From the NCBI GenBank assembly GCA_010405405.1, contig MU004238.1, positions 755,530 through 819,529 of the forward strand: DNA of 64,000 nucleotides, in the 5' to 3' direction. The notes beneath the pieces were generated by a model, which saw nothing but the letters and a program-made list of their open reading frames with translations, ran no database searches and was not told where the DNA came from. Below, one piece after another: positions 23,552-30,011 of this stretch. The DNA comes from Microthyrium microscopicum (lineage: Eukaryota; Ascomycota; Dothideomycetes; Microthyriales; Microthyriaceae). Within the stretch, counting starts at the first letter, position 1. Each line of letters starts with the position of its first letter. The position numbers and the translations under genes were made by a program.

Positions 23552-26500
23552 CTACCTCTTGGGACGCGGTTTGACTTTACCAGAAAAGCCCACCATCTTA
23601 TGGGGTGGCTTTGCGGTTTGCGTGGTCGTCGCTGGAACTGTCGGCGGAGCCATGTTCTGGTGATTGTTTGCAAGCCTTTGGTTCAGTTTTACCGCTGTGT
23701 CCTCTTCTTGTTCCTCCTCTTCTTGTTCATCTTCATCTTGCTCATCTTCATCTTGCTCATCTTCTTGATCTTCGTCATCTTCATCTTCTTCTTCTTCGTC
23801 TTCTTCATCATCTTCTTCTTCTTCGTTCTCTTCGTCGTCATTCTCTTCATCTTCATCCTCTTCATCTTCATCATCCTGTCTTTCCTCCGCCTGTTGGCGC
23901 AGAGTCTCTTCGATGGCCCTCCGTCGGTCAGGATCAGCATTGATCGTGAGCCTAAGACGTGGGCCCTTTAGAGCGTTCTTGAAAGGACGGTCTGGCGTTT
24001 GGCCGCGCACATAGCCTTGCTGTGTGGTGGCGTAAACAGGATCGATGACAGGCTGGGGAAAGCTTCCACCATTACGCTCCAGATAATTTTCCACCAGAGT
24101 GCGTGCTTTTTCAAAGTCTCTCCGTGTTCGTGTCCAGTGGAAATCGGCAATCTCGTCGCATATACCCTTCCTTTGGGACATGACGTAGTCCTCGAAACTT
24201 TTGCTAGACGCGTCCGCTTCGTTCAGTATAGTGTTGACGTAGACAAGAGCTTCTACGGCGGTGTATCTCTCAAATTTTTTCTGACTCTTTTTCGCAATTT
24301 CTACTGGACTGCATAATCGGTATACAAGGTAGGACAAAGCTGGCGAATACTTCCTAGTTCTGACCATCATGGTCCGTTCAGCTCCTTCAAGTATTTCATT
24401 CTGATACGCTGGCCCTCCGCCAGGGCGAAAATGGTTTGCGGGATCATCATGATTATCCCGTGTTGGTAGCTTGTTCAAGACATGAAGAGGTAGCACATTG
24501 ATAGGCTGGATACCAACTCTGAGAGTATTGTCCTCGAAGTCTTCACATATCTCCCTGATGCTCCACCTGGCTGTTTGATTAGTCAAGATAGTGTGTATAG
24601 TCATGCCCAGTCCAAAAACATCGCAAGCCGTGGTCAAGGCGTCGCCTGATCTTGCTTCTATGAACGGATCTTTATCGAGTCTTCGCACCATCTCTGGAGG
24701 CCCATAAACATATGTGCCAACGGAACCATGAATGTCACCTTGATAGTGAGCATGGCCAAAATCAGCTATCTTGAAAGTGTAGACCGGTTGATTATCGGGT
24801 CCGGTTTTATATGCAAGGATATTGCCCGGCTTGATGTCTAGGCTTGTTAGTATACATTCATGATACTAAAGTCTTAGGGGTCAACGGGTTCACAAAACAA
24901 ATGCAATGGTTCCATCGACTACGAGGTCTGTCATATCGCTCTGAAATGAACATGATCTGGTTCCCGGCGCACACAAGATAACCAACGAGCCGAAAGCAGT
25001 CAGTCAAAGTGTATGAGCTAATAGCCCCGTCCGTTGTGGGATTATGACAATCAATCTGCGGACTCGATGGGAGTGACTTGAGACACAGTACTTTGACAGT
25101 CGATATTCTGACAGATCGTTATTTGAAAAGGTAGAATATCGAGTACTGCCAGCACAGAGCACAACTTATTGAAAGTCAATATACATACCATAATGAATAA
25201 TGGGTGACCAGCTTGCAGCATTAGCGGGTCCATTATGCAGAAACATGAGAGCTTCAAGCATCTGCTTCAACAATTGCCAAACCTGTTTTTCGTCTAGACT
25301 TTGAGGTCTCTGAGGACCTGAACTACCCTCTGGAAGAGACGGCATATCTTTTGTCCTAGCGGCTAGTCCATAACGGTGCGACCATTTGTATAGATCTCCT
25401 TCGTCAGTCCATTCAGTGCAGTAGTTTATAAAGTAGTTGCTAGGCTTCTCGGACTTGCTCGCAATGTGTAGCGCTATATTCCGAGGATTGTGCCGTGTAA
25501 ACTTCTTCAAAAATTCCAGTTCATGTCCAAAGCTGAACTTGTAGGCAATCTTCAAAGCATAGCAATCTGGCTTCTCTGGATCTCCGTCTTCTCTGTCTAG
25601 CTTATGGACTCGACCGCAAGCGCCAGAGGCATCAGGCTCGATGTTCGCGCCGAACCTGGCAAGCAGCTCGCGCAATTGACGCTGACGAGCTCTTTCCCAC
25701 TTCATCAGCGTTGTCTTGTTCATGCCTTTGTTTCTTCTGTATCTCATCGCAACAGCCTTCTTTAGTTTCGGTCTAGAATCTGTTAGTGCTCGCTCTTCGC
25801 ACAATGTCACGCCGTTCGCAAGTCGTGCTTGGCCGCAGACTGGTGCCAGGTGCACTCAACGGCTCACTAGGTAGCTCAGACTGAGCGTTTCACCTGACGT
25901 TTGTCTTAGAACAAACCAGCTTTTTGACCTTGGCAAAATCGTATCCAAGTCCGTACGGGATCATACAGGAACGAAAGGATTCGACTTGTTTCATGATGAT
26001 ATGAATTCCTAGTTCACAATAACTTACATGTTTTCATCATCGTTTCGCACGTATTGAAGCTTGCGCCTTTTTGCGATGTTTCTTTGTCCATCGAGTTCGA
26101 GTGCCTCATTTTCTGCTTTGGCATCTGCAGTAGGGAGCTGTTTACACATGATGTCGGCGTAAATGTCGTTCTGCCTCTGCAACTCGGCCGTGGCGGCAGC
26201 CTTTGCGATCGCTCTCCTATCTGAATCCAATTTCTTGTTAGTATTATTGTAAACTGGTTACAATACCTTAACCACCGTAGTAAGTTCTTCGATCACCATT
26301 TGAAATGCTTTTCGAAAGTCATTCAAGCATCTCAAGTGGCCTCAATTAAAACTTGCGCTACCAATGTCTTTGAAAGAGGTATTCTCACCATTTGCCTGGA
26401 CTGGTGACAGTAACGCTGGCTGGCCGGGTAGTGTGGCTCCTGGTATAAACGCTGGGCTATAAGTTGTTAGTTTGAGGATCTCTAAACAAGTCCCCGTCTT

Positions 26501-26778
26501 CATTAACATTAGATTTCATACTGTGACCGATTTCTGAACAAGACATTGTTGGTTACTGGAAAAATAGAGACACAAACTTACTCTTCCGCATATCTATCAC
26601 GCACGAGGTACGAGACAGGTACATGTTCGTCTCTTCGACCTCTGTAATGAATGCCAGCTATTTGATTTAGGAAAAACGGCCTTTCCGATAGTCGAGTCCA
26701 AGTCTCCGATACAGTGACTCTTTGTCTGGGCTGCACTGGAGCTGGGAGACCATAGTCTTGATTACGAGTACGAACCAT
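23552..26778 (-). CDS. Divergent protein-kinase-like protein with acidic C-terminal tail (kinase pair, left member)
   Basis: Five exons (26582-26778, 26389-26456, 26028-26220, 25189-25772, 23552-24837) sum to 775 residues in a single consistent phase. The kinase core is visible: a weak glycine loop (SGACGRVHKL), the lysine strand YALKIAYK, the catalytic loop IIHYDIKPGN with Asp, Lys and Asn, DFG in KIADFGHAHY, GPPE in place of APE, and DVFGLG for helix F. After the kinase fold comes a region shared with the neighbouring gene (IQPINVLPLH, RKYSPALSYLVYRLC, FHWTRTRRDFEKA), then about 90 nearly all Asp/Glu residues and a short basic end. The introns of 351 and 255 bases are much longer than others here, so the 5' exons are less certain. 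Predicted Ser/Thr kinase; substrate unknown. Confidence 0.7.
23694..23882. repeat. GAA/GAT/GAG-type coding microsatellite (acidic tail)
   Basis: A purine-rich (minus strand) imperfect trinucleotide array encodes runs of Glu and Asp such as EEDEDDEDQEDEQDEDEQ. Its mix of codons shows it has diverged from any pure repeat. Confidence 0.85.
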
Positions 26779-27514
26779 TTTGAATTGATGTAGTGGTTAT
26801 TGGTCTCAATCTTGAATTCTTAGTTCGAAGCGTTATTATCGTGGAATTGGAATCACAGTTGATATTAAGAGTCTCAATTTCTGTTCTATTGTTTGAAAAG
26901 AGCATAAGGACCAAAAAGTCCAGCAAATAACAAAGAAATTACTGTTTTCGTACTTAGACAAACACCCATTGTCTTGATCACTGAGGTCAACAGAAGGATG
27001 TGGTCCATAATAATCTATAGCAGACCTCCCTAGTATCTGTAGCCACTAGAAAATCAATCATGGCAATTGACAAAGTAGTTCCACAGTGGAAAATCAATTT
27101 GGTAAGGAAATAAAGTTTTTAGCTGTTTGATACTTCACGTCCTTACAGACAAACATACATGTTCACTGACAGGAGCGCGACATATAGTGTTGACATTAGA
27201 TACAAAGAGTAATCGAAGAGCCATACTCCTTCCTCGCCTTTCACATAGCGATGGATTGACCAGTATATTTTAGAGCAAAATGCTCTTGACGATGAAATGT
27301 GGGCACATACTCTTGGTTCTTGTTGATTTTCTGTGCCTCATAAAGTCAGCAGCATAAAGAAACTTTTGTTTTCCGGAAACAGCTGAATGAAAGAGATTCT
27401 GGTCTAAACAACTACAGTCGCTTGTGATTTGATGTCCTGCTGACTTGTCTCGAATTTGCAGGAATTCTTGATTGACTTGTGATATCACACTATTACCCAA
27501 AAAAGTTATTCAAG
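26779..27514. promoter_or_regulatory. Shared divergent promoter region of the kinase-like pair
   Basis: Both kinase-like genes start here and read outward, with 736 bases between the two ATGs. No coding sequence is supported. The arrangement allows joint control; no specific binding site was recognised. Confidence 0.45.
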
Positions 27515-30011
27515 ATGGTTGCTGTGACTCGTTCTAGAGCAGCTGCTGGTGTACCTTTGGGAAGCAATCCTCCTCCTGCGGTAAGATGAAATGGCCTTCT
27601 CGAATGTCGAGTATGATTAGACTTATTTTCTAACAAAGTCCAGGGAGGTGCTCCCGCGCCAGCAAACCGCCATCAATCGTCAGTTCTAATACTTAAAAGA
27701 AATGACCCCTTCGTTATTACAGAGTGGATAGACTTGGATTGCGTCCCTATATGGTTTAGCCTGAGAAGCGCTGGCTATGACGAGCAAAACGATCCTGTTC
27801 TCATTCCTGGCGAAGTGACGAACCAGAACGAATTGGTTCAGCTGCTCTCTCCAATCCGGAATGACGAGGACATGGCCATTCAAGACCAAAAACGAGAGAA
27901 TCAAGAGGATTTTGAGTTTGATGACGAAAAGTTAGGTCCCTTTGTAGGCAAGTTCGACGCCGATTATCACTTGGAGGCAAATTGGAATCTCAAATTCGAT
28001 CTCAAGGAAGCTAAAGCTCTCCCCGTAAACCGGAAGAATGACAAGCACTACGGAAAGGCTTATGGGAGAGGTAGAAAGAAGGTTCGCGACTTGAGTGGAT
28101 GGAAGGAAGCCTGCCAGCATAGAGCAGATAATAGACGAATTGTCAGGAGATGGCTCAAGAATAGGCAAACCGAATTCCAGAGACTTATCAGACTACGACG
28201 GGCAGAGCCGTATCCTATGTTTAAGAATCACACCACGCGTATGCATAAAGTCAGTCGAGATGGCGTGGTTTATGCGCTCAAAATCGCTTACAAAATCGAA
28301 ACTCCAACGGAGATGGCGATGCTTCATCATCTAGACAAGTACCCAAAGCAGAGAAATATTGCTTCTATGGTTGGCGAGCTGTCTAATGAGCCTAGTGTCT
28401 ACTTCTACAACTTTTGCACACAGTGGGCAAACCACGGAGACATCATTTCTTTCTCACTAAGGTATGGTAAAGTCAACCACGCTACTGGTCAATATCTGCC
28501 CGGCATGAATGAAGCAACCTACGCGGATGGGATGGACGAAGAGATGGCCTGGGTCATGCTCGAGCAGCTACTCCAAGGCTTTACCTTCCTACACCATGGA
28601 CTCGGTGAAGATGGCGCGCGTGTGAATTCAACAGCGGACTCATCATGGAATGCAATAATGCATTTGGACTTCAAGCCCGGCAACGCACTCGTATATTACA
28701 ATGGTGACCACCATGAGGATCTGATGGATAGATGGACTTTCAAAATCACCGACTTTGGCAATGCTGCATATCAAAACCATAACATAAGGCGAGAAAAAAG
28801 AATAGGCACTCTCCGTTTCGCTGCCCCCGATACCTGGCGTGAGAAATTCAATTATCCGCATTTTGGATTTAGGAATGATTTGACCGTGGCTAGTGATGTT
28901 TTTGTAAGTTTGCTACCTACTCTTAGAAGATCGAGTCTTGATACCAAATCATTTCGTATCACCCATAGCACTGCAGGGCAAGCGTAGAGCGCGATGAAAC
29001 CTGGGCTGACAAGACTAAATGATGTTTTCACTGCGTGTTGACTAGATAACGCTCTTTCGTGATCGTAAACTGATGAACTTGTAGATGCTTGGAGCAACAA
29101 TTCACTACGCTCTGACAAATATGATCCCGATATACTATGGAGACACGAGGCGCTATCTTCCCATTGGAGCAATACTTGGCCAGGAAGTTAAGAAAAGTCT
29201 GAAGAATTCTTTACAGCCTGTAAATGTGATTCCACTGCACAAGACACAGCAATGGTATGAGCGTGCAGACGATGCAAGGGCAGCTTTGGCGACAGACTCG
29301 TATATCAATCAGGTATATGAAGACTCCCAAGAACGCTTTCGGCCGAGAAAGTACTCAAAGCTGCTCAGTACTCAGATCTATAAGTTATGCAACATGGAGC
29401 AGGACGATAGCAACGATCCATTATTCATGCGTCCTACTGCAGGTGATGCTCTTATTGAAGTTGGCACCATCTACGATCTGATAAAAACCACAGCCGCGGC
29501 GACTAGTGAAACATTTGAACAAGTAGCTCTGAGGCTTGGACGAAGCAATGAACACAGTAGTGTATGCGACCGGCTGGCGAAACATCACTGGACGCTGACT
29601 CGCAAACAATTTGAATTTGGGCGAGAACTTGTCCAGACGTACAAGACACAATGGCGGAAGAAGCGTCGACTGAACTCCGATTACCATGAACCATCTAGGG
29701 ATCCTCTATATGCTAGTCGTTCTCCACCTAAGCCTGGTGTCATTCCAGCGACATATATTCCTGGCTTGACTCCTCCACCACCTGCGCGTAGGTCTATATC
29801 ACCGGAGCAACCGGAGGAAGAGCAAGGACAACAACAACAAGAACAACAGGGACAACAACAAGAAGAAGAAGAGCAAGAAGAAGAAGAAGAAGAGGAGGAG
29901 GAGGAGGAGGAGGAGGAGGAGGAGGAGGAAGAGGAAGAGGAGGAGGAAGAACAACAACCTGATTCGACCGTGATTGATACAGACCGTATGATATATGATC
30001 AGGGGGTATAA
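27515..30011 (+). CDS. Divergent protein-kinase-like protein with poly-Glu C-terminal tail (kinase pair, right member)
   Basis: Three exons, 27515-27580, 27644-28903 and 29085-30011, encode 750 residues. It opens MVAVTRSRAAAG, like the MVRTRNQ of its neighbour. The kinase core has YALKIAYK, catalytic loop IMHLDFKPGN, DFG in KITDFGNAAY, APD for APE and DVFMLG for helix F. No glycine-rich loop is seen: the matching position reads FKNHTTRMHKV. The 181-base intron lies inside helix F (DVF then MLGATIHYAL), whereas the neighbour is uninterrupted there. The post-kinase region repeats the neighbour's motifs (LQPVNVIPLH, RKYSKLLSTQIYKLC, HHWTLTRKQFEFG) and ends in Gln/Glu runs. ATP use may be altered because of the missing loop. 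It converges on RFC1. Confidence 0.7.
29816..29956. repeat. Trinucleotide array coding for Gln/Glu run
   Basis: CAA/CAG-type codons give way to an almost pure GAA then GAG array of about 30 units in frame, a classic slippage-prone purine tract near the 3' end of the right kinase-like gene. Confidence 0.9.

Follow-up and report, generated by a model that had tools for sequence, protein, structure and literature searches.

Genes A and B, two kinase-like genes arranged head-to-head in Microthyrium microscopicum, are probably members of a small, fast-diverging family of unclassified kinases, and the pair probably stems from an old local inverted (head-to-head) duplication. Evident at the sequence level are common descent, the divergent layout, intact spliced frames, complete kinase motifs in A, the lack of a Gly-rich loop in B and a post-kinase HWTxTR segment that is clear between A and B only. 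Some lineages possess many fungus-specific unclassified kinases, about whose roles little is known; three head-to-head kinase pairs in this genome, one of them with a loop-less partner, offer a concrete place to test paired working.

Gene models, kinase motifs and acidic tails of A and B

The pair is located in a 64-kb stretch of DNA that was analyzed as a whole (the window, C9:755530-819529) and belongs to a genome of 36.9 Mb in 20 contigs. Its introns and gene neighborhood would be compatible with a filamentous fungus. The following features were annotated by their position in the window:

23552..26778, minus strand: gene A, kinase-like, 775 aa, five exons (26778-26582, 26456-26389, 26220-26028, 25772-25189, 24837-23552); intact frame, GT-AG splice model, Pfam Pkinase match
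27515..30011, plus strand: gene B, kinase-like, 750 aa, three exons (27515-27580, 27644-28903, 29085-30011); GT-AG splice model, Pfam Pkinase match, without Gly-rich loop
26779..27514, no strand: A/B intergenic region, 736 bp between the start codons, putative divergent promoter
23703..23875, minus strand: tandem-repeat-like DNA in the acidic tail of A (TRF, periods 6 to 30)
29859..29950, plus strand: GAG/GAAGAG tract in the acidic tail of B (TRF)

An earlier note had described divergent genes for 775 and 750 residues around 736 bp, and the splice models bore this out, with intact frames of 775 codons over four introns and 750 codons over two. The proposed common start of the MV(x)TR type was recovered as MVRTR in A and MVAVTR in B. 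The two proteins are paralogs, as had been claimed: with the acidic tails excluded, 158 of 489 aligned positions were identical (32%, 213 bits, E 3e-64), and the common motifs YALKIAYK (A224/B232), HxDxKPGN (HYDIKPGN at A346, HLDFKPGN at B362) and DFG (A373/B392) could all be mapped. Located nearby are genes for RFC1, an adaptin, an EF3-like ABC protein and a ribosomal protein of the L16 type, unrelated core genes which do not give the surroundings the appearance of an accessory region. As the start codons are only 736 bp apart, co-expression of A and B is plausible. In plants, sensor and executor receptor pairs are divergent in layout, to which the arrangement of this kinase pair can be compared.

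Both proteins matched the Pfam Pkinase model above its cut-off of 31.7 bits (A 57.7 bits, B 38.6 bits). A has all features of a eukaryotic-type kinase, i.e., a Gly-rich loop (SGACGRV, one Gly short), the Lys in YALKIAYK, the catalytic Asp and Asn in HYDIKPGN, DFG and the helix-F Asp in ACDVFGLG, and is predicted to be an active Ser/Thr kinase. In B, the Gly-rich loop is gone, with FKNHTTRM and not a single Gly opposite SGACGRV of A, and the VAIK-type Lys, the catalytic Asp and Asn (YALKIAYK, HLDFKPGN) and DFG are retained. The APE position is occupied by PPE in A and APD in B. Pseudokinases are recognized by nucleotide-binding or catalytic motifs of which one or more are missing, as is the case for B, and it is possibly a degenerate partner of A. 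In pseudokinases, loss of the Gly-rich loop lowers the expected ATP binding but does not abolish it. B would bind ATP poorly or differently and have weak activity or none; since Lys, Asp, Asn and DFG are kept, it may be active.

The Asp/Glu tails reported for both proteins were confirmed by residue counts: 56 of 74 residues are D or E in A654-727 and 32 of 42 in B701-742. Both tails are encoded by trinucleotide-repeat-like DNA. Basic clusters are present as well (KRRK at A139, RKKR at B633), and together with the acidic tails they hint at a location of A and B in the nucleus.

Family members, duplication history and other divergent pairs

Searches of the genome with A, B, C and D as queries yielded these four close members, a distant relative G (C12:249459-250286) and weaker matches to other kinases. 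C and D form a second head-to-head pair on the same contig, 1.16 Mb away from A/B, and a third pair, E/F, belongs to another kinase-like family having DWG in place of DFG:

L032:1809-8068 (C9:1944808-1951067), divergent: pair C/D, second head-to-head pair of the A/B family, 1473 bp between the start codons
L037:2178-5238 (C4:357677-360737), divergent: pair E/F, third head-to-head kinase-like pair, presumed start codons 939 bp apart

C comprises 592 aa in one exon and D 861 aa in three exons; the neighboring genes encode Spo7, an alpha/beta hydrolase and an Fe-S assembly protein. The corresponding motifs are GEGGYGRV, HRDMKPQN and DFG in C and NKGGFGQV, HFDIKPNN and DFG in D, so that among A to D the loop glycines are absent only in B. 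In C, 78 residues follow the last kinase helix, and the tail of D is long and non-acidic; acidic tails are therefore not common to all four proteins. Near the N-terminus of D, an alanine/proline-rich repeat of the APQVP type was observed.

The top non-self match in the genome was B for A, A for B, D for C and C for D. The search with C gave D at 75.9 bits followed by G at 45.1 bits, and that with D gave C at 83.9 bits versus 62.9 bits for B and 49.4 bits for A. BLASTP comparison of the whole models resulted in 206 bits for A-B, 117 for C-D, 114 for B-D, 108 for A-D, and 72 for both A-C and B-C. In phylogenetic trees based on two trimmings, A and B were sisters (SH-aLRT/UFBoot 90.1/94 and 94/95), D joined A/B with weak support (92/71 and 61.3/66), the position of C was unresolved, and monophyly of A to D was weakly supported. 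The topology ((A,B),(C,D)) passed the AU test (0.37, 0.39). Copying of the whole pair from A/B to C/D was considered as well, and both topologies representing it were rejected by the AU test (0.039, 0.028; 0.0019, 0.0066) but not by the SH test, which rejected no alternative topology (lowest p 0.078). The AU result favors a local inverted duplication as the event that would have given rise to A and B. The order of the duplications is not fixed by these data, given the weak placement of D, the weak monophyly of A to D and the outcome of the SH test.

E is a 515-codon frame, and F is in pieces and looks frame-broken, for which an intron might be responsible instead. Single relatives of the E/F family are located at C9:1639078, C12:810293 and C9:1425485. 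At least 110 kinase-like loci were counted in the genome (138 rows merged to 103 loci, plus 7 otherwise found), among which four neighboring pairs have less than 5 kb between the matched pieces, three of them divergent and one convergent; the orientations were counted after the pattern had been noticed. The three divergent pairs account for 6 of the 10 loci A to G, E2, E3 and E4. At distances of 7 to 11 kb there are five further neighboring pairs, of which three are in tandem, one is divergent and one is convergent.

Comparison of the A/B and C/D intergenic regions showed no sharing of words with k = 8 to 12 above that in 60 shuffles. One 9-mer, complement included, is common to the A/B, C/D and E/F intergenic regions (0.3 ± 0.9 expected). 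The A/B intergenic region shares eight ten-mers with its own complement (2.5 ± 2.7 expected from 100 shuffles), and no long inverted repeat was found in it. The 11-mer AGTGGAAAATC occurs in the intergenic regions of both A/B (window 27044-27098) and C/D (L032:3585-5057), the number of shared words not exceeding that in shuffles.

The C-terminal segment and alternative explanations for the pair

The earlier note had also proposed a conserved extra domain following the kinase, made up of three matching blocks. These blocks, QP(I/V)NV(L/I)PLH (A458/B486), RKYS (A509/B530) and HWT (A581/B610), are indeed present in both proteins, but the QPxN block most likely sits in an insert after helix F and the RKYS block most likely at helix H, both inside the kinase fold. 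For these two blocks the extra domain was rejected, and most of it appears to be the ordinary end of the kinase fold; only HWTxTR is located beyond it. The RYTA Arg (A538) is invariant across A to D. As a counter-point, the bacterial post-helix-H Arg was paired in a 45-row alignment with a Lys of A located seven residues ahead of A538, and A538 itself was aligned with an Arg of B alone, the register being uncertain there. Six canonical kinases were also compared by profile, and this comparison stops just past helix F.

The claimed domain thus shrinks to one pair-specific segment, HWTxTR. With the acidic tail of A excluded, the post-kinase segments of A and B aligned with a score of 123 compared to 26.3 ± 4.6 for shuffled sequences, and none of 1000 shuffles reached this score. 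For the other five pairings, the score was reached by 44 (A-D, marginal), 337, 770, 963 and 999 of 1000 shuffles. Judged by these scores, the HWTxTR segment is clearly common to A and B alone among the four proteins, and it might serve as a shared docking element. The structure searches barely reach this part, and the segment may have a known fold.

Several explanations other than that of fast-diverging family members from a local duplication were weighed. A and B might be two independent active kinases whose head-to-head layout is a mere by-product of duplication without functional meaning. We regard this as possible but rather doubtful: the catalytic Lys, Asp, Asn and DFG in both proteins, the long divergence indicated by 32% identity and the location among unrelated core genes are in line with it, but all loop glycines are gone from B, and three of the four kinase-like neighbor pairs within 5 kb are divergent, although this is a post hoc count on a lower-bound list. 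A functional link is assumed in the unlikely case that A and B constitute a module of kinase and pseudokinase, in which B would bind A or the substrate of A via the C-terminal segment and switch A on or off, the intergenic region keeping both in step. Such a module might explain why the Gly-rich loop was lost in B only and why the post-kinase segment is clear between A and B alone, and the divergent layout recurs in C/D and E/F. It is at odds with the remaining catalytic motifs of B, with the loop glycines in both C and D, which are likewise divergent, and with the promoter words, which between pairs were not above shuffles except for the one 9-mer common to three. The idea is a hypothesis based on one lost loop and one common segment.

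The broader notion that lineage-specific fungal kinases have repeatedly been kept head-to-head, with A/B as a co-regulated active kinase and a loop-less partner sharing a pair-specific docking segment, is quite improbable. That A, B or both are decaying duplicates, turning into pseudogenes and retained by chance, is very improbable: the loop loss in B, the repeat-like tails and the apparently broken frame (or intron) of F would agree with decay, but the frames of 775 and 750 codons are intact across four and two introns, and catalytic motifs are kept in both proteins. With most of the extra domain apparently being the normal end of a kinase, the preferred explanation, a family diverging after local duplication, makes A/B an unstudied but fairly ordinary fungal kinase pair, the twist being one partner without the ATP-gripping loop.

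Relation to described kinases

For comparison with the literature, extracts of PMC6001611, PMC2838846, PMC3591445 and PMC4817773 were used; in titles and the beginnings of abstracts, no description of head-to-head fungal kinase pairs was found. The closest described kind are the unclassified kinases of filamentous fungi (Ffk-like), to which A/B are likened by description and not by sequence. FfkA-K of Aspergillus nidulans are distinct from FunK1, bear little resemblance to kinases of animals and yeast and include a paralogous pair, FfkD/FfkE, with 49.8% identity (extracts of PMC3591445); the extracts mention no head-to-head layout. Those ffk genes that were deleted gave no phenotype in the screen described there. 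Ankyrin repeats are present in FfkA, FfkB and FfkC (PMC3591445, in extract), unlike in A and B, for which no ankyrin model gave a match up to E 0.1 (A residues 1-668, B residues 1-660). In Table 1 of the same source, the best Neurospora matches of FfkB and FfkC are consecutive (NCU06582, NCU06583), perhaps another adjacent pair.

The unclassified kinases of Fusarium are similar in being lineage-specific and outside the named families, but amount to about 41 per genome with many on accessory chromosomes (extracts of PMC6001611), whereas here A to D number only four and A/B are surrounded by core genes. In F. graminearum, six of eight unclassified kinases tested showed a phenotype (extracts of PMC6001611). 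Pseudokinase paralogs such as VRK3 resemble B as kinase paralogs with an altered nucleotide-binding site and differ from it in that B retains the catalytic Asp and DFG.

FunK1 (PF17667, Pkinase_fungal) is likewise a fungus-specific kinase family, but neither A nor B matched its model at E values up to 0.1, and by profile A/B are not FunK1. Genome-wide, this model had three short and weak matches, one above the cut-off and none at A/B (C11:66654-66917, C14:327953-328177, C2:3976555-3976785), and FunK1 seems nearly absent from the genome. In wider searches, relatives were obtained from a genome contig collection (best 80 of 250) and at seven loci of a viral contig collection. Among the matches listed, the matched query residues stop at or before residue 333 of 453. 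One of the viral-collection loci, L066, was inspected and contains a kinase-like frame.
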